Shown here piece after piece: positions 38,921-57,835 of a DNA stretch of 64,000 bases; the first letter of the stretch is position 1, and every line of letters starts with the position of its first letter. The DNA lies in assembly GCF_001263395.1 (NCBI RefSeq), contig NZ_CP011786.1:930001-994000 (forward strand), read 5' to 3'. A model generated the notes under the pieces. It made no database searches and had not been told where the DNA came from. It saw only the letters and a program-made list of their open reading frames with translations. A program made the translations under genes and the position numbers. The DNA is from Bifidobacterium actinocoloniiforme DSM 22766 (GTDB lineage Bacteria > Actinomycetota > Actinomycetes > Actinomycetales > Bifidobacteriaceae).

Positions 38921-38997
38921 GGCCCCGTAGCTCAGCTGGATAGAGCAACTGACTTCTAATCTGTAGGTCGCGAGTTCGAGTCTCGCCGGGGTCACCA
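38921..38997 (+). tRNA. tRNA-Arg (anticodon UCU)
   Basis: A full cloverleaf can be drawn: acceptor 38921-38927/38987-38993 (one G-U pair), D stem GCTC/GAGC, anticodon loop CTTCTAA with TCT at 38955-38957, T arm GCGAG-TTCGAGT-CTCGC, discriminator A and encoded CCA (38995-38997). It decodes AGA. The anticodon stem ACTGA/TCTGT has a U-U mismatch at its middle pair (29-41). The 3' end is the probable prophage integration site. Confidence 0.95.
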
Positions 38998-39499: not shown

Positions 39500-41782
39500 T
39501 TACTCCCGCCCGCGTCGGATGATGTTGTAGATGGTTGATACCGACACCCCGTATTGGGTGGAGAGCTCTTTGACGCTGGCTTGCTTGGCGTTGTAGAGGG
39601 ACTGGATCCGCTGGGCTTCCTGCGTGGTGACCCGGGCGCGTCGTTTCCTAGGCCGCGCTTGGGTTTTCTTGTGTTCGGCGGGTTGGCTGTCCGTGTCCTG
39701 CGGGGGGTCGGGGCGTATGTCCCATGTGGCGCTGGGCAGGATCCTCAGCCCGCTCGCGCGGTCGGTGAGGATGCGTGGGTCGCGCGACCATGAGCTCAGG
39801 GTCCGTTCCATCCGGTCTTGCGCCGGCCCCGTTTCCGGCATGGCGGCGAGCACGGCGTGGGCCGTGGCCTTGGGCGTGTGCCGGTCGGCCCAGGTGTCCT
39901 CGGGCATCCAGACCTGCCACAGGCCGTCGTCGGTGTGGCCGCGCCTGCGGTACAGGGTCATTCGGCTGACGCCGGTGGCTTGCTCGATGCTGGCCATGCT
40001 CTTGCCTTGCGCTTCGGCTTGCGCGCATAGGTCCATGAGCAGTTGGGAGAGCGTTTGGATGCGGATCCTGGCGTCCATCATGTCGGGCCTGGGGTCGGGG
40101 CCTGGCGCTGACACGGTGGTGGCGCGCGCGTGGTCGCGGAGGCGTTTGACGCTTGATGCGCTCTTGCCGTAGGCGTGCGCCAGCGCGGTGGATGGCCAGC
40201 CTTGCTCCAGGGCCGTCCTGGCCAGGTGGTCCAGGCTTTCGGTTTCCTGGGCGATGGCCCGCGCCACGTCCGTTAAATACGACATGTCGGGGCCGAGGAC
40301 CGCTGCGGAGAGATCCTCGAGCAAGGCGCGGCGTCGGAGGGCGGGGATGACGCCGTTGTGGGGGGCGAAGGGGGAGGGTTGGTCCGGTGAGGGCCAGGCG
40401 CTGATCTCGCTCGCCGCTTCGGCGGCCGCATGCACGGGGTCCAGCCTCCCGGAGAGGATGCGGCTCATGGCCGTGTCCAAGGTTTGCTCGGCTTCGTCGG
40501 CCGCGTCGGCGCGCAGGGCGTCGGCCCGCGCGCGGTGGCTGTGGGTCATGGAGCCCGCCGCCGTGGCCATGCTCAGCCGGTAGGAGCGCCAGGCGTCGCG
40601 CATGGCGCCCAGCCCCGCGACGGCCTTGTCCAGTACGCGGCCGCCGAGGCCGGTCAGCCAGTCGGGCAGGATCGGCTCGCTGTGGGTCTCCAGGTCGATG
40701 ATGGCGCTGGCTTGCTTGCCGTAGGTCATGGACGCCGTGCACAGGCGCCATCCCAGGTCGATGCCGGTGGCGGGCAGCGCGCGGCGGGCCCAGGACAGCG
40801 CGGAGGGTCCCGGGCCGGCCGAGGGCCCGGGCAGGGCCCGGCCGATCATGGACGGCAGGCCTTGGCGCGAGGGGGATTTACTGGGCACGCACCGGTGGGC
40901 GCGGTCGCGCCGCCAGCAGCCCATCGGCTCCAGGCCGTGCAGGGTCGTGGGGTCGGTGGCGTCCCCGTAGGTGACGGTCGCGCCGGTCACCCCGGCGGGC
41001 CCTCCGGCGAGCAGGACGCGGCGCGAGGGCCAGGCCAGGCAGTCGGCCGGGCCGGTGGCCGCGCGGCCGGACACGGGGTCCGGCGACGGGGGCGCGGTCC
41101 GCTCCCATACGGGCAGGTCGCCGGGGCGGGCGCAGTCGGGCGACCAGCCCAGGATCAGCGTATGGTACAGGTCCGGGCCCTCAAGCCATGCCATGTCCAT
41201 GCTCCCGCACAGGCCCATGACCTGGACGCCGCGCGGCGGGTACTCCTTGCCGCGCTTGGCGGTGGCGCTGCCCAGGGCGGCGGGTTTGATGCCCGCCGTG
41301 TCCCACGCTTGGATGGCGAGCAGCGCCGCCACGGCCCGCGCGGGGTCCACCGGCGCGTCCGATGCGGCCCGCGCGCCGAAAAGCGGCGGGCTTTCCACGG
41401 GGTCCGCCTCGCGCAGGGGGACCGGGCCCGCCGCCGTGGCCAGGCCGGGCGTCTGGAGGAAGGGCCGGTCCTTGTCGAAGAGGTCGAACCGCCCGGCCCA
41501 CCGGTCCAGGTAGGCGTCCACTTGGGCGGGGTCGAACCCGTCCCGCGCGTACAGGCCCAGCCATGCGTCCCGCCCGTCGGCGGACCCGCCGGGCGCCGGG
41601 AGGATCCGGTAGGTCAACGCCAGGAGGAGCCGCAGCGTGGGGATCCGGTATTCGGCCCTGGGCTCGGCCAGCCGCACCCTCCCGGCCTCATGCAATGTTT
41701 GGCGGATGCCCCACTCATGGGACCCGCCCCGCGCGTCGATGACGGGTATCCAAGGCTCTTCGAGCAGATCGTATCCGGGCAT
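39500..41782 (-). CDS. Cse1/CasA-like Cascade large subunit fused to helix-turn-helix domains (solitary, in prophage)
   Basis: 760 residues. Residues 1-495 follow the actinobacterial Cse1 pattern: YDLLEEPWIPVIDARGG at the N-terminus, LRLLLALTYRIL, FDLFDKDRPFLQTPGL (95-114), AIQAWDTAGIKPAALG (156-171), LAWPSRRVLLAGG, VTYGDATDPTTLHGLEPMGCWRR (270-292), SMTYGKQAS (351-359) and a C-terminal helical bundle. In type I-E Cascade, Cse1 reads the PAM and recruits Cas3. Residues 496-760 are extra, with HTH-like segments at about 523-550, 588-614 and 718-757, the last resolvase-like (VKELSTQYGVSVSTIYNII). No cas3, cse2, cas7, cas5, cas6, cas1, cas2 or array is in the window. Its ATG shares one base with the stop of the 139-aa gene (TGATG). 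Function inferred: Cascade interference or hijacking. Confidence 0.8.
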   Translation of the reverse strand: MPGYDLLEEPWIPVIDARGGSHEWGIRQTLHEAGRVRLAEPRAEYRIPTLRLLLALTYRILPAPGGSADGRDAWLGLYARDGFDPAQVDAYLDRWAGRFDLFDKDRPFLQTPGLATAAGPVPLREADPVESPPLFGARAASDAPVDPARAVAALLAIQAWDTAGIKPAALGSATAKRGKEYPPRGVQVMGLCGSMDMAWLEGPDLYHTLILGWSPDCARPGDLPVWERTAPPSPDPVSGRAATGPADCLAWPSRRVLLAGGPAGVTGATVTYGDATDPTTLHGLEPMGCWRRDRAHRCVPSKSPSRQGLPSMIGRALPGPSAGPGPSALSWARRALPATGIDLGWRLCTASMTYGKQASAIIDLETHSEPILPDWLTGLGGRVLDKAVAGLGAMRDAWRSYRLSMATAAGSMTHSHRARADALRADAADEAEQTLDTAMSRILSGRLDPVHAAAEAASEISAWPSPDQPSPFAPHNGVIPALRRRALLEDLSAAVLGPDMSYLTDVARAIAQETESLDHLARTALEQGWPSTALAHAYGKSASSVKRLRDHARATTVSAPGPDPRPDMMDARIRIQTLSQLLMDLCAQAEAQGKSMASIEQATGVSRMTLYRRRGHTDDGLWQVWMPEDTWADRHTPKATAHAVLAAMPETGPAQDRMERTLSSWSRDPRILTDRASGLRILPSATWDIRPDPPQDTDSQPAEHKKTQARPRKRRARVTTQEAQRIQSLYNAKQASVKELSTQYGVSVSTIYNIIRRGRE

Positions 41783-42201
41783 CAGTCCTCCGCCCCGAGG
41801 ATCTCCAGGACGGCGTCCCTGTCCAGGCCCGACGCCTGGGCGAGCTCCCTGACGCTCATGGAGTCCTCGGCCGCGTGGCGCAGGGCCCGCCTCAAATCGG
41901 AGTCGCTGTATATCATCCAGGAGAGGTCGCCGTCCTCGTCGCGCACCCGGTCCACCAGCTTCATGACCTGGGCGGCCGCCGTTTCGATCCGGTCCCGGTC
42001 TTGGTCGAAGAGCGTTTCGTCGGGCTCCGAGATCATGTATTCGATGCAATAGGCCTGGTCGTCGCTGACGTCGGATTCGTCGGCCGTCAGGCCGTCGACG
42101 CGCGCCGCCTGCCGTTGGAACTCCTTTGACATGCTCAGCGCGGCGGATGGCACGAGGTCGTACTTGTCCGCCATGCGCTGGGCCAACTCCTCTATGGTCA
42201 T
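41782..42201 (-). CDS. Very acidic 139-aa phage protein with C-terminal HTH-like segment
   Basis: Unknown function. About 34 of 139 residues are Asp or Glu, concentrated in the middle (ADESDVSDDQ, SEPDETLFDQDRDRIE, RDEDGD). The end, MSVRELAQASGLDRDAVLEIL, looks like a small HTH; the N-terminus MTIEELAQRMADKY is helical. ATG 42201 has GGGGAG upstream. It is coupled by TGATG to the Cse1-like gene, implying related roles or stoichiometry. Strong acidity is common in anti-CRISPR and DNA-mimic proteins but does not prove this. Confidence 0.75.
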   Translation of the reverse strand: MTIEELAQRMADKYDLVPSAALSMSKEFQRQAARVDGLTADESDVSDDQAYCIEYMISEPDETLFDQDRDRIETAAAQVMKLVDRVRDEDGDLSWMIYSDSDLRRALRHAAEDSMSVRELAQASGLDRDAVLEILGAED

Positions 42202-42243
42202 AATGACTCCCCTCTTTGGATGGTCCACTACCCTACATCGACT

Positions 42244-42256
42244 ATTGTACCACAAT
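42244..42256 (-). promoter_or_regulatory. Internal promoter with overlapping inverted repeat, ahead of the 139-aa/Cse1-like pair
   Basis: On the minus strand TGGTACAAT forms an extended -10 (TG-N-TACAAT; -10 hexamer at 42244-42249). The inverted repeat ATTGT-ACC-ACAAT (42244-42256) covers it exactly, as expected of a repressor operator. It lies 43 bp from the 139-aa start codon. The -35 is poor, which is tolerated by extended -10 promoters. Confidence 0.55.
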
Positions 42257-42289
42257 GAGCGCCCAATGTGTGCGGAATTTAGAAAAATG

Positions 42290-42625
42290 TTACCGGTCCC
42301 CGGGCCCATACTCGATGGCCGCCCCGGTCCGCGCGGCGACGCGCTTGGCTATGGCCCGTGACCAGGCGGCGGGCATGCCGTCCTCCCTGGCCATGTCGGT
42401 CCTGGGCACCAGGAGCACGTCGTCGCCCCGGTCCGCGCCGTCTTCGACCAGCAGGTCGGCCTGGGCTTCCAGGGCCTCGAGGTCGGAGGCGATGCCGTCG
42501 GGTATCCTCCGGTCGCCACGCTCCCACCGCTGCACGCTCTGCCTCAGGACGCCCCACCTGTCGGCGAGCCATTCAAGCGGGAGGTGGAGCGACTCCCGCG
42601 TGGCCTTGAACTCAGCTGGCGTCAT
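42290..42625 (-). CDS. Aca2/DUF1870-like HTH regulator
   Basis: 111 residues starting MTPAEFKATRESLHLPLEWLA, an XRE-like HTH with LADRWGVLRQSVQRWERGDRRIPDGI as the helix-turn-helix core. The wording MTpaEFKalRE...vqRWE.G.r.iPd is that of the YdiL/DUF1870 group to which the anti-CRISPR-associated repressor Aca2 belongs. The C-terminal ~50 residues (VPRTDMAREDGMPAAWSRAIAKRV) may dimerise. Aca proteins autorepress anti-CRISPR operons; here the gene sits among acidic genes and a Cse1-like gene, with inverted-repeat operators on both sides. Family placement is by eye. Confidence 0.7.
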   Translation of the reverse strand: MTPAEFKATRESLHLPLEWLADRWGVLRQSVQRWERGDRRIPDGIASDLEALEAQADLLVEDGADRGDDVLLVPRTDMAREDGMPAAWSRAIAKRVAARTGAAIEYGPGDR

Positions 42626-42660
42626 AAGCGCGCCCCTTCCTCCTTGCGTCCTCTTGCGCC

Positions 42661-42696
42661 GGGGGGCGGCTCGGCCCGCGAGCCGACGCCGCCCCC
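42661..42696 (-). terminator. Very stable hairpin between the 102-aa gene and the HTH gene
   Basis: GGGGGCGGC+TCGGC pairs with GCCGA+GCCGCCCCC across a 4-nt loop with one bulged base. No T-run. It is placed as an intra-operon attenuator that would set the first gene higher than the HTH gene. Confidence 0.5.
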
Positions 42697-42707
42697 GCGC
42701 GGCCCGC

Positions 42708-43016
42708 TTACCGCTTGCCGGAGACGTCGTGCCGGGCGAGGACCTCGTAAACGTCCACCCCGCGCGCGGCCTCGGCCACGGCCTCGTCGTCGATCTCCGC
42801 GTCGGCGTCGCAGACGGCGACGCCTGACCTGGACACCGTCAGGCCCAAGGGGTTGACGACCTGGTTGACGCGGTCCATGTAGTCGTCCAGCGCGGCGTCC
42901 AGGTCGTAGTCGCCGGCGTCGGCGCCGGCGGCGTTCTCGAGGATCCAGTCCATCCCCGGGGCCTCGGCGCTGACGATCGAAGCGAAGCCGTCCGTGTACT
43001 CGGTCTTGGTGGTCAT
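42708..43016 (-). CDS. Small acidic phage protein (102 aa), first gene of the candidate counter-defence operon
   Basis: Unknown function. 22 acidic against about 7 Lys/Arg residues, with clusters such as GDYDLDAALDDYMD and CDADAEIDDEAVAEAA. No TM or signal peptide. AGGAAGG precedes the ATG at good spacing and a promoter is visible just upstream. Position directly after the lysis cassette terminator and ahead of an Aca-like HTH gene is typical for an anti-CRISPR locus; the assignment is guilt by association. Confidence 0.72.
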   Translation of the reverse strand: MTTKTEYTDGFASIVSAEAPGMDWILENAAGADAGDYDLDAALDDYMDRVNQVVNPLGLTVSRSGVAVCDADAEIDDEAVAEAARGVDVYEVLARHDVSGKR

Positions 43017-45219: not shown

Positions 45220-46836
45220 CTAGCATTCGGTCAGAAACACGTACCGGGCGAACCACCCGCTGACCTGCGGGTCGGTGTAGCACAAATACACATCACCGCC
45301 GGACACCTGACAGTCGCCGAAATACTTGAAATACACGGTGATCTGATAAACGCCGTCCGGCAGCCAGAACCGGCGCGAAGCCGAATAATTATCCGTCTGC
45401 CCCCCGGGAGTCGCGCTGCTGCTGACCACATGCGTGGCGATGTTTTCACCGTTTTTGCGGATCACGGCGAGCAGGAAACCCTCGCCCGGGCCCGTGATAC
45501 GCTCGCCCATGTCAAGCACATACCAGCGGCCCTGACCGGGGGATCGCACGGTCAAAGACGCAGTGTTCTCCGTATACCAGGTCCCTCCCGGATAGCCTGG
45601 CCTGCCTGTCCAGGAAGACACCCACTGGTAGACGCGACGGTCCGGCGCGTAGATCGACCTGCCATCCAGGGCGACATCCCCTTCAATCCCAACAATCTGA
45701 CGGCCTACGATATCCACCCTGTCGGCCGTCAGGCCGACATTGTTGCGCCCCTGCTGGCCCCTCACGATGGAGATCTCCGGCTGCTGCGTGCTGGTGCCCA
45801 TCATCAGCCGGCTGACCAGCCCGTCCTCGTCATGGTCGCCCCAGATCAGCCAGTACGGGTGCGTCGGGTCATCCCCTATGCCCTGCAGGCCGCCCGTGGT
45901 GGTCCCTTGGATCAGGGTCTGGCTCAACTGGATGCGGTCGCCGCCGCCCGCGGTCTGCAAGCCGCCCACCGCCTGCACACCGTTCCCGGACGCCTTGAAC
46001 AGGGTTTTCCCGTCCACGCCCTTGGACCAGAAACCCGACGAGTCGAAGCCCACCAGCCCATCCGGCGTACTGAACTGGCCCGACCTGATGATGCCCGCGC
46101 AGATCAGGCCAATGACCGCCGCGTCCACCTGCACATCACGAGCCGCCAGCTGATCCAGGTAGACGGCCACCGGGATCGGCACCCACGCATCCCCGTCCCA
46201 CCACCATTCGGCCGCTACGGCGGGACGCTCGCCCTCCCCATAGCGCAGCCACAAATCCCCCCGATGCTTGCCAGCACCCTCAGGGTCGGTGGCCGCCTTG
46301 GTGACCAGGATGCCCAAGCTCTCCGGGTCGATGTCAGCGCCCGACACCGTCACACGCTCCGGCCCCCAGGCCGACGAACCGTTAGGCGCCGGACTGCCAT
46401 CCTGCGCGTGCGCGTCATCCCACGCCACCACCTTCACCTCATGCACGCTGCCCGGCTCATACGGGCCCAACGGGTACACGCCCTTAGCCAGCGCCCTGCC
46501 CGCCTCCAGGCCATCCACGATCAGCGACAAATGGTCGAAGTCCGGGGGCACGCCACCCTCCAACCCCCCATCCCAAGCCACCAGGATCATGCCCGCGCCA
46601 GACCCCACCGTCACACCCGTCGGCCTGCCCGGGGGGGTCGTATCCCCCACCCAATGCACCACACCCTCAGGCCCGGCCCCCGGCCCCTGGATCGTCTTGG
46701 TCCCGTCCACGTTATGCCAGGTGCCGGTCCCGGTCGCCCCGGTCTGCTGCCGGGTCGCGATGTCCAAGGCCGACCCCGCCGCCAGAGCCACGTCCTCAAA
46801 CGCGGTGCGGCGGATGATGCTGGGATGGTATACCAC
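45220..46836 (-). CDS. Tail fibre / receptor-binding protein
   Basis: 538 residues from GTG 46836 (AAGGAGT upstream). The N-terminal third has a fibronectin-III-like segment (PPGRPTGVTVGSGAGMILVAWDGG), then RDVQVDAAVIGLICAGIIRSGQF, the repeated helical/trimerisation motif of siphovirus tail-tip proteins, and a beta-rich C-terminus ending in CYTDPQVSGWFARYVFL. The C-terminal part is the likely host-binding domain. Last of the tail genes before lysis. Confidence 0.75.
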   Translation of the reverse strand: MVYHPSIIRRTAFEDVALAAGSALDIATRQQTGATGTGTWHNVDGTKTIQGPGAGPEGVVHWVGDTTPPGRPTGVTVGSGAGMILVAWDGGLEGGVPPDFDHLSLIVDGLEAGRALAKGVYPLGPYEPGSVHEVKVVAWDDAHAQDGSPAPNGSSAWGPERVTVSGADIDPESLGILVTKAATDPEGAGKHRGDLWLRYGEGERPAVAAEWWWDGDAWVPIPVAVYLDQLAARDVQVDAAVIGLICAGIIRSGQFSTPDGLVGFDSSGFWSKGVDGKTLFKASGNGVQAVGGLQTAGGGDRIQLSQTLIQGTTTGGLQGIGDDPTHPYWLIWGDHDEDGLVSRLMMGTSTQQPEISIVRGQQGRNNVGLTADRVDIVGRQIVGIEGDVALDGRSIYAPDRRVYQWVSSWTGRPGYPGGTWYTENTASLTVRSPGQGRWYVLDMGERITGPGEGFLLAVIRKNGENIATHVVSSSATPGGQTDNYSASRRFWLPDGVYQITVYFKYFGDCQVSGGDVYLCYTDPQVSGWFARYVFLTEC

Positions 46837-48080: not shown

Positions 48081-48943
48081 CGGGCGACCCCCTCGTCAAT
48101 AACCTCCACAGTACGCAGGCCGCGCCAAGTGAACCGTGGCCGCCCCAGATTGGGTTTGGCCATCACATCCACCCTGTGCGGGCGGCCTCCCTCCAGGACC
48201 ATGCGCCACTCCACGGACTGCCTGGCCCACACATGCGCCACCAGGCACTCGTCCAAACCATCACCCATGTCCTGATCGTCAACCACGGGCATTGCATAAA
48301 AGCTGCCCACCTGCTCGCCATCCACGCTCGCCCGCCACGTGAACTTGACCGTGACCAGCCGATCCGTGGCCAGCATCATCGTCTCAGCGGGAGCCTGCGA
48401 CCACCATTTGGTGCTCCAATCCTGCAAGACGCTGGACGTGTTGCTCCCGTAGCCGATCCGCCCCATCTTCGCCCCGTAGGGGATCGCGTAATCCACGCTC
48501 CCCATGGGCGACGCGGAGATCGTGGCGGACGCGCCCGCCGGCATCGTCATGTCCCTCAGCCGCAACCCCCCGGCCGGCACTACCGGGTGCGCAGGCGACG
48601 CGGACGGCGTGCCCTGCGCCACATGCAAGGACACCTGCCCGCCGGCCCGCGTATCCGCCAGCAAATACACCGTGTCGATGCGCGGGTACGCGCCGTCACC
48701 CGCCGTCACCGCCTCCAGGGTCAGCCCGCCGGGCCAGTACGCCTCCACCGACCCGTCCGACCCGCCAGTCGAGCACACCGCCACCCCGGCCGACGCCTGG
48801 TACCGCAAGCCCGCGGCCCCCGACACCTCCAAGCCGGCCACCACGCCCGGGTTCTCCCAATGCGCGCCAATGACGCGCCGGTGGGTCAAAGCGTCCATGC
48901 CCACGCCGTCCGCGTCCTGGGCCACGCCCAAAGCTGTCACCAT
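48077..48943 (-). CDS. Minor tail / baseplate protein
   Basis: 288 residues. The N-terminus (DALTHRRVIGAHWENPGVVAGLEVSG, YRIDTVYLLAD-like region YPRIDTVYLLAD) is typical of short beta-rich baseplate or fibre-adaptor proteins; the C-terminal half is likewise beta-rich, with RGLRTVEVIDEGVAR at the end. No enzyme motif. Translationally coupled to the next minor tail gene by a 4-bp overlap. Confidence 0.6.
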   Translation of the reverse strand: MVTALGVAQDADGVGMDALTHRRVIGAHWENPGVVAGLEVSGAAGLRYQASAGVAVCSTGGSDGSVEAYWPGGLTLEAVTAGDGAYPRIDTVYLLADTRAGGQVSLHVAQGTPSASPAHPVVPAGGLRLRDMTMPAGASATISASPMGSVDYAIPYGAKMGRIGYGSNTSSVLQDWSTKWWSQAPAETMMLATDRLVTVKFTWRASVDGEQVGSFYAMPVVDDQDMGDGLDECLVAHVWARQSVEWRMVLEGGRPHRVDVMAKPNLGRPRFTWRGLRTVEVIDEGVAR

Positions 48944-49856: not shown

Positions 49857-52800
49857 GCCATCCCCCTCAAAGCCATCCTCGCGGCCGATGCCATCTGCCT
49901 GCCCATGATTGTTCCTTCCACGAACGGGTCTTTGACGCCGTTGTTGGTGATGTTCACGGGCTGGATCACGGTGGGAGACACCACGGTGGACGTTGACTGT
50001 TCCACTTTCCCGGTCCGGTTCATCCTGTCCAAAGCGGCAAGCCCGATCCTCTTCGCCGCCCATGCCCTGACCACATACTCCTGGTCCGACAGCAAAGCCG
50101 GGATCGAATCACTCGTAGTGGTTCCAGGGCCGCGTACCAGACCGTAAGGCCCGCCGCCTGCCGAGAACCCTACAGGGCCACCATTCGCGCGGCTAACAGC
50201 GCCTCCGGCGAATTTCCCTGATGGTTTCCCGGTGAAGTAGGTCACGACTTCCCCAGGGATCCGCTTGAACCAATCCAGGATGTTCTGCACCACGCCACTC
50301 GCATGGTCGTGAGCGTTCAAATCGGTATCCTTTTGCCTCGGCACGCTCTTAATGGCATTATCCACGTCGCCGATGTTCTTGATCGCCCCGGAGTTGAAGG
50401 CGTTCATCACGGTGTCCTTTGTCGCAGGCGTGAGATTGAGAGTATTGAGATACTGCTCGACCTGGCCTTTGCTCAGCGGCGCGTTCTGGCTGATGTTCGT
50501 CCCGACATTCGAGGGTATGAGCCCAAGCTGATCCGCATACTGCTCGGCCTGCTCCTTGCTCATGCCGCACTGCTGGGCCGCGTCCACCATGGCTTGACGT
50601 GCCTGGTAGATGTTGTTCCTGGCATCCTGTGACGCCTGTCCGAGATTGCCGGTCGCTTGTCCCTGTTGCATCACGGCAGCGGCAGTAGCGATGGACTGAT
50701 CCGCCATGTTCTGCATGGCCTGCCGGTTCAGCTGCCCGGACTGGGTGTTGGCGTCAAGGCTACCGCCGTTGGCTTTGACGGTCGTCGATAGTCCCGACAA
50801 TTTGTTGTTGAGGTCCTGCTGTATGCGGCTCAGGTTTTCCGCGCTCCCGGCCATCTGGTTCTGCTGCCAGACTGCGTCGTTGTAAGCGTGGTTCATTTGC
50901 GCGAGCTTGCGTACACCCTCCTCGACTACGCCATTATGCTTACTTCCTTGCCCCGTGCTCTGCTCTAGAGACTGTACATATGAGTCGATGGAGCCTTTGT
51001 CTCCCTCAATGGCCCCTCGGAAGGTCTGCATGCTGACCCCGGCTCCGCTCAGCTCCTCCTTGAAGGAGCCGTACCCGGACCTGAATTTCTGGAACCAGCC
51101 CCAGTCCATGTCTGTGCCCTTGGTCGCTGCGGTGTCGACGAAGTCGGAGTAGGCAGTCTGTCCTTGCTGCAGAGCAGACTCCAAATCCGTTGTCCGATCT
51201 TTCGCTTTTTCCGCGTGGTCCGCCCACAGCATGACCCCGCCGACTGCCGCCGCAATTCCAGCGGCGGCGGCCCAACCACCAGGGCCGAGTCCGCCAAGCG
51301 GGCCAAGCAAGCCGGATACTCCTCCGCCGGCCTTTCCGGCTTTCGACCCCATTTCCTCGGAACTCTTGGCCAGCCCCGAGACATTAGGGGCTGCTAAAGA
51401 GGCAGATTTGCCGATACCGGCGAAGTCCCCTGCCAAGGGTGCCAGGCCAGCGCTGGAAGATACACGCGCCGAGACGAAATCCGAAAGGATGCCGCCTACT
51501 GATTTGACTCCTTTGCCCAGTCCACCGACTGCTTTCAAAGCCAGACCGATCGGGGCCTCTATGGCTTTGATCTGCCTGCCGAAGAACATACTGGCGCCGA
51601 TGGCTCCCTGTATGGGCGCTGGGAGCGAGGAGAAGGCCTTGACAAGGGTCCCCATGATGGTGATGGTCGGTGATAGGGCGTTCAGTGCCAGCGTCACCGA
51701 TTCCACACCCTTGGTAGCCAGGTCAAGACCAGGCTTGGCGCCTTTCATGCCTCCGCCGAACGGGTGCATCTCCTTGGTAGTGCCGGTAATCTGTTCACGG
51801 ACGCGCTTAAGAGCGTCCTGGAAGCGTTCGACGACCTTCGGGTCCATGCCCTTGAAACCGTCGGTGAAGGATTTAGAGATGGTGCCGGACTTGAGGAAGT
51901 CGCCCAGGCCCTTGACGCTGTCGCGGACATGTTTGACCGTGCTCTCTATGCCGTGCCGCGCGGAATCGGGCACATGGAAAGCCTGCGCGAAGGCGCCGGA
52001 CACCCTGCCGTCGCGTAGGAGGGAGACGGTCCCTCCTACGGCATTCGGGAGCCATTTGAAGAAACTGTCAAGCTTGCCGTTGATCTTGTCCACCACGTCG
52101 ATGCCCATATCGCCGAGGGCCCCAATGGCATCGATGAAGCCGCCCCCTATGGTGGTCTTGATGGCGGACAGTTGATGCTGCATGATGATGTACTTGCCGT
52201 ATGGGGTGGCCGCCATCGCTTTGTTCACGCCGCCGAAGTTCTGCTCCAGGACTTTGGCGAGGGTCGCGGCCCTCTCCTCCTGCGAGCCGTGGGCTAGGAG
52301 CTTTTTCTGGTTCTCGTCGAGGGTGACGCCGTACCTGCTCAAGGCGCCGACGTTGCCGGTCATGACCTTGCCTACCAGGTTTGACAGCTGTACGCCGTCC
52401 TCGGTCGTGGCATTGTAGCCCTTCGTGTTGGCGATGAGGTCAGCAAGAGCTGGCGTGAGGGTCTTGACGCTTTGGGAGGAGAGCATGAAAGTACCGAGCT
52501 GGGCCTGTGACGCTTTCAGCGTCCCTGCGCTGATGATGCCCGTCCTGCCGAGCTCCTTGTTGTAAGCGAGTAACGCCTGGGTTTGGTCCTGCGCCCAGTG
52601 GTTGTTGCTTGCGATTTGCTGGAATTTGGCTGTCGTGCCGCTGATTTCGTTGTAGGCGTCTATAGCGGTGCGCCCGTAGTTGACAATCCCCCTCGCACCG
52701 AAAGCCAGGAGAGACCCAATGGCGACCGTGCTGGCCTTGACGTGGCCGACCACTCCCTGATAAGCCGCCCCCAGTCCATTAACGGTGGCACCGGCCTTAT

Positions 52801-56596: not shown

Positions 56597-57835
56597 CTAC
56601 TTGGACCGGGCGGCCTTGCCGAGGGTCACCTTGACGAAGGCCTTGGGGTACTTGACTTGCAAGCCCACCCTCTCCTTGAGGCGAATGGCTTGTTTGTCGT
56701 TGATGAAGAAGTCCGCGTGTGAATCAGTGGACTTGATGTCGATGCCACCTTTGCGCAGCACCTTGCCGCCGGCTTTGAAAGCGCCGACGATGGCGGTTCC
56801 TGGGGTCACAGCCTCGGTGACCACGGTGCGCAAGCCCCAGATGGGCGGGTCCTGCATGACGCCGCCGTTACCGTACTGGCCGGTGAAGTAACCGCCGCCG
56901 AAGTACTGTCCGTTACTGTCCTTGGACAGGCGAATGGCCTCATAGTCGGTAGGGTTGATGACGATGCCGTCCGGGTTGAACCCGGTGTCATGACTGATCA
57001 GCCTACGGCATGCGAACAGTCTGTCTGCATCGGAGTCGTCCCCCTGCCCCAGGGTCTGGATGCCGCGCATGAGCAGACCTTTGAGGTTCGGGTCATTGCC
57101 GTCGCCGTTGAGTAGCTGGTTCTCCTCCTCCAATCCGAGGGAGTATTGGGCGGCGTCGGTAATCTCGCCCTGCAGCCATGGCAGGTCCTCCACCATGTCG
57201 TCGGATACGCCGAACCAGACAGCAATCTCTCCAAGGGAGTCCGTCTGCCAGGTGGGGTCGGGGAAGTGGGCCTGCGCTTTGGTCCCGCCCTCCTTGACGG
57301 TCTTCGCCCCGCCTTCAAGCTCCCCGTACACCGGATACTTGAGGGCGGACCCTGAAAGGGCGCCCTGCGCGAACAGGTCGGCCACCACGAGGGGCCTGCG
57401 GTAAGGGCTGACGCCCTCCTGGTCCACTTGCGTGACGAAAGGCCCGAACGCACCGTCGGAGCCTCCGACCATTTGCGTGTCAGTAGGTGCCTTGAAGGAC
57501 ACCTCCATGCCGGCTTTGAACGCCTGCCGGGCTTTTATGCCCTTAGCCTGCAAGTTCTTAATAAAGAACTCTCCAGGCGTGCGCGACTTAGCCGCAGAGC
57601 CACCGTCGTTGCCTGTTGGCGCCGGGTCGGACGATGACAGCCCGTCGATGCTGTGCAGGAGCTGCGCGCTTTCGTCAGCTTTCTTGATTTGGTGGTCCAG
57701 GTCGGACACCTTTTCGAGGAGGTCCTTGACGGCTTTGGTGCCGTCCTCGTCGAGGGCATCCCCGGTTTTGAGCTGCTGCTGGTAGGCTTTCAGCTTTTCG
57801 ATGGCTTCGGCCCGCTTTTCCTTGAGTGTGGCCAT
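56597..57835 (-). CDS. HK97-type major capsid protein with N-terminal delta domain
   Basis: 412 residues. The first ~100 residues are a helical, coiled-coil scaffold (LKEKRAEAIEKLKAYQQQLK, LEKVSDLDHQIKKADESAQ), normally removed by the prohead protease. The remainder is the HK97 fold (VTQVDQEGVSPYRRPLVVADLF, EIAVWFGVSDDMVEDLPWLQ, GIVINPTDYEAIRLSKDSNGQYFGGG). The stop and start with the protease gene are one base apart in the same operon. Confidence 0.92.
   Translation of the reverse strand: MATLKEKRAEAIEKLKAYQQQLKTGDALDEDGTKAVKDLLEKVSDLDHQIKKADESAQLLHSIDGLSSSDPAPTGNDGGSAAKSRTPGEFFIKNLQAKGIKARQAFKAGMEVSFKAPTDTQMVGGSDGAFGPFVTQVDQEGVSPYRRPLVVADLFAQGALSGSALKYPVYGELEGGAKTVKEGGTKAQAHFPDPTWQTDSLGEIAVWFGVSDDMVEDLPWLQGEITDAAQYSLGLEEENQLLNGDGNDPNLKGLLMRGIQTLGQGDDSDADRLFACRRLISHDTGFNPDGIVINPTDYEAIRLSKDSNGQYFGGGYFTGQYGNGGVMQDPPIWGLRTVVTEAVTPGTAIVGAFKAGGKVLRKGGIDIKSTDSHADFFINDKQAIRLKERVGLQVKYPKAFVKVTLGKAARSK

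Follow-up and report, generated by a model that had tools for sequence, protein, structure and literature searches.

A solitary Cas8e homologue coupled to an acidic partner in a Bifidobacterium prophage: a candidate counter-CRISPR gene pair

A prophage of about 43 kb in Bifidobacterium actinocoloniiforme DSM 22766 encodes a homologue of Cas8e (Cse1/CasA), the large subunit of the type I-E Cascade complex of clustered regularly interspaced short palindromic repeats (CRISPR)–Cas systems, and the pieces of the prophage analysed yielded no further cas gene. The stretch of DNA studied here, hereafter the window, comprises 64,000 nucleotides (contig NZ_CP011786.1 of RefSeq assembly GCF_001263395.1, positions 930,001 to 994,000). 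The solitary cas8e-like gene (39500-41782, minus strand, 760 aa) is preceded by, and overlaps by 1 nt, a gene for an acidic 139-aa protein (41782-42201, minus strand) with a predicted coiled coil and a C-terminal helix-turn-helix (HTH), and homologous pairs occur in Bifidobacterium rousetti and Bifidobacterium biavatii. From the sequences, we consider it about an even chance that the two genes form a counter-CRISPR module, in which the prophage Cas8e would replace the host subunit to yield a defective Cascade and the partner would regulate the pair.

A first-pass annotation of this DNA had proposed an anti-CRISPR-type operon of four minus-strand genes between 41782 and 43016. A counter-CRISPR locus is indeed plausible, but the Cas8e-like protein, rather than either small acidic protein, is the best candidate for an inhibitor, and the interval holds three minus-strand genes, the Cse1-like gene lying directly downstream. 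The setting of the group between a lysis cassette and the prophage attachment (att) site was described correctly. The pair lies on a mobile element in a host with a type I-E gene set, the setting expected of anti-CRISPR genes.

THE Cas8e-LIKE PROTEIN

The resemblance of the prophage protein to Cse1, already noticed in the first-pass annotation, is far beyond chance. Residues 5-445 (40448-41770, minus strand) match Pfam PF09481 (CRISPR_Cse1) with 189.1 bits against a cut-off of 24.7 (E=2.1e-55), NCBIfam TIGR02547 (casA_cse1) is matched with 81.7 bits against a cut-off of 70.05 and the PADLOC Cas8e profile with 6e-52; the protein is 28% identical to the Cas8e of the host. An AlphaFold2 (AF2) model, which is mostly confident for residues 1-450 and of low confidence for most of 452-720, aligned to T. 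fusca Cse1 (3wvo) with a Z score of 43.0 and a root-mean-square deviation of 3.1 over 480 residues. Since the AF2 input alignment (A4: the protein itself, P0001, and 68 of 79 usable loci) included canonical Cas8e rows that help to impose the Cse1 fold, the sequence scores are the independent evidence. Alignment ranges to Protein Data Bank entries reach residue 668, resting beyond residue 450 on the low-confidence part of the model. A search of BFVD structures gave no match at E<=0.001, and no toxin family in the profile libraries searched matched the protein.

Most N-terminal residues that are conserved in canonical Cas8e are retained in the solitary proteins. In comparison with 66 canonical rows, W11, R51, F99, P107-F108, Q110, D161 and G164, as well as T208, W226-E227 and R254, are present in each of the solitary Cas8e, whereas the C-terminal P300 and W463, conserved in 98-100% of the canonical rows, are lost in all three; at further conserved positions, one or two of the proteins deviate. 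The prophage protein also departs from canonical Cas8e in carrying an extension of about 310 residues after residue 450, which is basic (isoelectric point (pI) 9.43) and ends in an HTH (residues 720-757; 39512-39625, minus strand) matching PF13384 (HTH_23) with 36.9 bits against a cut-off of 24.6 (E=2.9e-9). This HTH, the basic tail and the long branch of the protein would suit a phage protein for transcription or DNA binding that has kept the Cas8e fold but lost all contact with Cascade. We regard such a departure as improbable in view of the conserved residues of the N-terminal body.

Another possibility is repurposing, in which the phage Cas8e would join host Cascade and redirect it, for instance through altered sensing of the protospacer-adjacent motif (PAM) or its own DNA-binding tail, so that competing phages or phage genes are repressed. 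The Cas8e-like body with its added HTH would be compatible with this, as would a YGKQAS stretch that falls at the Gln-wedge position. Such a protein would be a natural counterpart of the CasA fusion engineered for gene activation in Streptomyces (PMC12838274). However, the tails differ among the three solitary proteins, a Pfam HTH being found in the window protein only, and B. biavatii, which gave no cas1 match, may have no Cascade to redirect. We rate repurposing as unlikely.

SOLITARY STATE AND RECURRENCE OF THE PAIR

Matches to the Cas8e-like protein were found in 44 of 189 Bifidobacteriaceae genomes. Among 47 regions from this family (every Cse1 row except two from the window's own genome, an HTH-only row, G089, being excluded), other cas genes were present in 45 and absent from two, those of B. 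rousetti (L047/L120, G108:C7) and B. biavatii (L060/L127, G049:C54). None of the type I-E neighbours cse2, cas7, cas5, cas6 and cas3 was found beside cas8e on these two contigs. A species-wide scan used a few peptide patterns and kept the best 80 of 261 relatives, so that other solitary Cas8e may exist; in 77 of these 80, three or more further cas genes accompany the match, in one (L186) cas3 does so on a short contig, and the remaining two are again the loci of B. rousetti and B. biavatii. One protein (P0007) carried an extra leading P, from one codon early, in A2, A3 and the searches based on A3.

In a pattern scan of IMG/VR, where the same prophage is present as a 43-kb contig, it was the only solitary case. 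Other viral relatives have cas3, cas7, cas5 and cas6 (L091), cas7 and cas5 (L093) or cas3 in a locus that reaches the contig end (L092). Near-complete type I-E sets thus occur on viral contigs (L091 and L219), which would allow the prophage gene to be a leftover, no longer functional, of a phage or plasmid system that was originally complete. This is very unlikely, because the prophage pieces yielded no further cas gene and no remnants of cas genes nearby; moreover, the 760-codon frame is intact and the coupled pair is present in three elements. Since no cas neighbours were found beside the solitary cas8e, the locus does not belong to type I-E CRISPR–Cas systems as such, and it differs from canonical cas8e in being coupled to a gene for an acidic HTH partner.

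Matches on Bifidobacterium plasmids came from five records, and there were others on plasmids of Streptomyces and further hosts. The Bifidobacterium plasmid inspected, the B. breve megaplasmid pMP7017 (L220, NZ_KM406416.1, 65226-72228), carries type I-E-like cas6, a short casA (416 aa), casB, cas7, cas5 and cas1, and the annotation of this stretch lists no cas3. B. rousetti has two additional, divergent type I-E-like loci on a single contig (L083 and L084, G108:C5), one of them with a shortened cas8e, adjoined by a long array with 73 repeat matches.

The tree pool lost 12 rows that were too short under a frame-extension rule and six duplicates, leaving 114; trees were built on 67 and then on 51 or 50 rows, long or near-identical rows being removed by hand. 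In the 51-row tree, the three solitary Cas8e form one clade with support of 97/92. A single origin is likely, although not secured, and the shared partner supports it independently of the tree.

THE ACIDIC PARTNER

In B. rousetti and B. biavatii, homologues of the 139-aa protein are encoded directly upstream of the solitary cas8e, with an overlap of 4 nt in each case. The window protein matches these two with E-values of 8e-9 and 1e-7, and they match each other with 9e-38. All three partners are acidic (pI 4.18, 4.26 and 4.17), while the Cas8e tails are all basic (pI 9.4, 9.7 and 10.6, the last two computed for the final 130 residues). The count of 34 acidic residues in 139 given in the first-pass annotation is exact. 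All three proteins weakly match phrog_686, an HTH family, and the AF2 model of the window protein is helical, with a long helix (62-112) and a C-terminal HTH-like pair (predicted local distance difference test score 80, predicted template modelling score 0.39). Foldseek gave no match to this model at E<=0.001, the hits being mainly HTH segments. A regulatory or partner role is likelier than one as a stand-alone anti-CRISPR protein (Acr), because of the predicted coiled coil and C-terminal HTH and of the recurrence beside solitary cas8e.

A profile of the partner, run against 396 genomes of the order and 394 of the class, revealed no convincing new member outside the family, its weak matches there (E 1.4e-5 to 9.6e-5) covering the C-terminal part alone. 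A scan of the family yielded a fourth member (G073; L098, at the end of G073:C2), whose contig breaks off about 410 nt further on, too early to show whether a cas8e follows. The profile (A1) had been built from three of its own best matches, whose E-values are therefore not independent, whereas that of the fourth member is.

Upstream of the B. rousetti and B. biavatii partner genes, sites of the ACTATTG type are repeated, and both regions contain TTGACA-N18-TATACT. Around this element lie two palindromes with 9- and 7-bp arms in B. rousetti, the longer of which was reached in 1 of 300 shuffles, and two ACTATTGACA repeats in B. biavatii. The window has a single CAATAGT site (42241-42247), which agrees with the motif found ahead of the B. 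rousetti and B. biavatii pairs and overlaps a TG-extended -10. Together with this -10, ATTGTGGTACAAT (42244-42256, minus strand) may act as promoter/operator of the window pair. A consensus scan upstream of the window pair found no sigma-70 site, and the palindrome at this position, taken alone, can be accounted for by chance, being equalled in 165 of 300 shuffles. These putative sites fit a repressor-like partner but are not proof of one.

The arrangement is also reminiscent of type II toxin–antitoxin modules, in which an acidic HTH gene comes first and overlaps a second gene, downstream of operator-like repeats. The pair could hence be such a module, or another autoregulated one, unrelated to CRISPR, as its gene order, overlap, acidic/basic contrast and repeats would suggest; that one carrier, B. 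biavatii, gave no cas1 match points the same way. However, the second protein is here a recognizable Cas8e homologue that retains N-terminal core residues, and the lack of any toxin family match noted above also speaks against this explanation, which has in our estimate a low probability.

THE HOST TYPE I-E SYSTEM

Elsewhere on the chromosome, as judged from open reading frames (ORFs) and queries, the host has a complete type I-E operon (cas3-cas8e-cse2-cas7-cas5-cas6-cas1-cas2, in this order), and its array consists of 81 repeats and 80 spacers. Two spacers match the prophage with two mismatches each, spacer 53 at 48338-48370 and spacer 26 at 51095-51127 (both plus strand), while the best match in a control consisting of one shuffled set had nine. 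Related phages were therefore once targeted by this host. The first base is C in 75 of the 80 spacers, as if it were derived from the PAM. When counting starts after this base, one match has its mismatches at positions 3 and 18 and the other at 7 and 24; under type I-E rules, 3 and 7 are seed positions and 18 and 24 tolerated ones, falling under the every-sixth-base rule. Mutated seed positions may have let this prophage escape, or it may depend on an inhibitor; the two may also apply together.

Three further host spacers (27, 17 and 33) pair with the late region of the prophage at 45956, 46861 and 46946 with eight or nine mismatches, against a best of nine for the shuffled spacers, a hint that related phages may have been targeted repeatedly. 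Three B. rousetti spacers, two of them identical, match the window prophage at 56889 and 59054 with six mismatches, in the head-gene region. An RNA anti-CRISPR (Racr) was also considered and rejected, since the best match to a solitary host-type repeat in the phage had nine mismatches, the same as for shuffled repeats.

PROPOSED MECHANISM AND ITS STANDING

In the counter-CRISPR module that we favour, the conserved N-terminal body of the prophage Cas8e would let it take the seat of host Cas8e on Cas5e, Cas7e and the CRISPR RNA (crRNA). Normal target engagement or Cas3 recruitment would not be supported by the altered C-terminal part of the protein and its basic HTH tail. The result of this subunit swap would be a defective Cascade, the prophage protein acting as a dominant-negative subunit. 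The acidic HTH partner, translated first and coupled, would repress the promoter of the pair and control dosage, and may also mask the basic tail of Cas8e.

There are precedents for inhibition by lone homologues of Cascade subunits. According to a review (PMC13131331), AcrIB3 is a Cas5 homologue that displaces Cas5 and AcrIB4 resembles the C-terminal domain of Cas8b (Katz et al. 2024), and like these proteins the prophage Cas8e is a lone homologue on a mobile element. In contrast, the candidate inhibitor described here concerns type I-E, corresponds to the large subunit at most of its length, has a fused DNA-binding tail and comes with a conserved partner. In the literature searched, no solitary Cas8e is described as an inhibitor. 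If our proposal is true, Cas-derived inhibition would extend to the type I-E large subunit, and the pair would show how a Cas8e decoy is controlled.

Several observations weigh against this proposal. The Z score to Cse1 is, as said, partly imposed by the canonical Cas8e rows given to AF2. Each protospacer has one seed mismatch (at 3 and at 7), so that mutation alone may have let the phage escape. The absence of a cas1 match in B. biavatii, a carrier of the pair, means that no resident adaptive CRISPR system was seen there, and B. rousetti spacers gave no match to that species' own element (best, nine mismatches). The neighbours of the B. biavatii pair read as AbiE-like, HipA-like and resolvase-like genes, and such surroundings would suit a role in defence just as well. 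Finally, the clade of solitary Cas8e joins long branches, which calls for the usual warning about long-branch artefacts: support was 74 with N-terminal residues alone and 82 when either other solitary protein was omitted, and in a quick 67-row tree including very divergent rows the three did not form one group.

Blocking of Cascade, its redirection and a departure from CRISPR altogether are each compatible with the sequence. A more far-reaching scenario, which we consider a long shot, is that the solitary Cas8e of mobile elements form a family whose members, with DNA-binding tails fused to them, evict the native large subunit and also recast crRNA-loaded host Cascade as a DNA-binding complex controlled by the element and tuned by the acidic HTH partner, serving prophage maintenance or the exclusion of rival phages. 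With a solitary Cas8e, its conserved coupled partner, a host whose type I-E gene set is intact and spacers that match the carrier phage imperfectly, the question becomes testable in a defined gene pair.

NEIGHBOURING GENES AND PROPHAGE BOUNDARIES

Upstream of the pair, a 111-aa protein of the phage XRE type (42290-42625, minus strand) contains the MTPAEFKATRE...VQRWERG sequence that had been likened to Aca2/DUF1870. It cannot be retained as Aca2, its score against Aca2_YdiL (PF08965) being 17.1 bits with a cut-off of 23.8 and Aca2 structures giving E-values of 0.66-0.75. It is rather a generic phage HTH protein (phrog_955, E=3.7e-9), with relatives annotated as HTH, DNA-binding protein or transcriptional regulator in 10 phage records, from phages of Mycobacterium, Streptomyces and Thermobifida; a match to YdaS_toxin had E=0.12. 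The likeness of the cluster to those with Aca autorepressors (Aca2/YdiL) lies in the presence of HTH genes, and it differs from them both in this protein, which falls under the family cut-off, and in the 139-aa partner with its coiled coil and C-terminal HTH.

The ORF beyond (42708-43016, minus strand) encodes a 102-aa protein with 22 acidic residues, as first counted, and a pI of 4.05. It has no family in the profile libraries (best PHROG match, E=0.29) and no relative outside the prophage in the collections searched; nothing ties it to CRISPR, and an Acr role is unsupported. The lysis cassette follows, with a holin (PF16938, 43316-43576) and a GH25/LysM lysin.

In B. biavatii (L060, 824-6000), the ORFs beside the pair read as AbiEi/AbiEii-like genes, a serine resolvase, a RecQ-like helicase and a HipA-like gene, and an integrase (Pfam) lies on the other side, the whole resembling a mobile island rich in defence-like genes. 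The prophage of the window is bounded by an exact 45-bp direct repeat, whose left copy, the att core (38951-38995, plus strand), lies inside a tRNA-Arg gene (38921-38997). The second copy is at 82361-82405 when the numbering of the window is continued, and a tyrosine integrase, assigned by reading the ORF, is encoded at this far end of the prophage.

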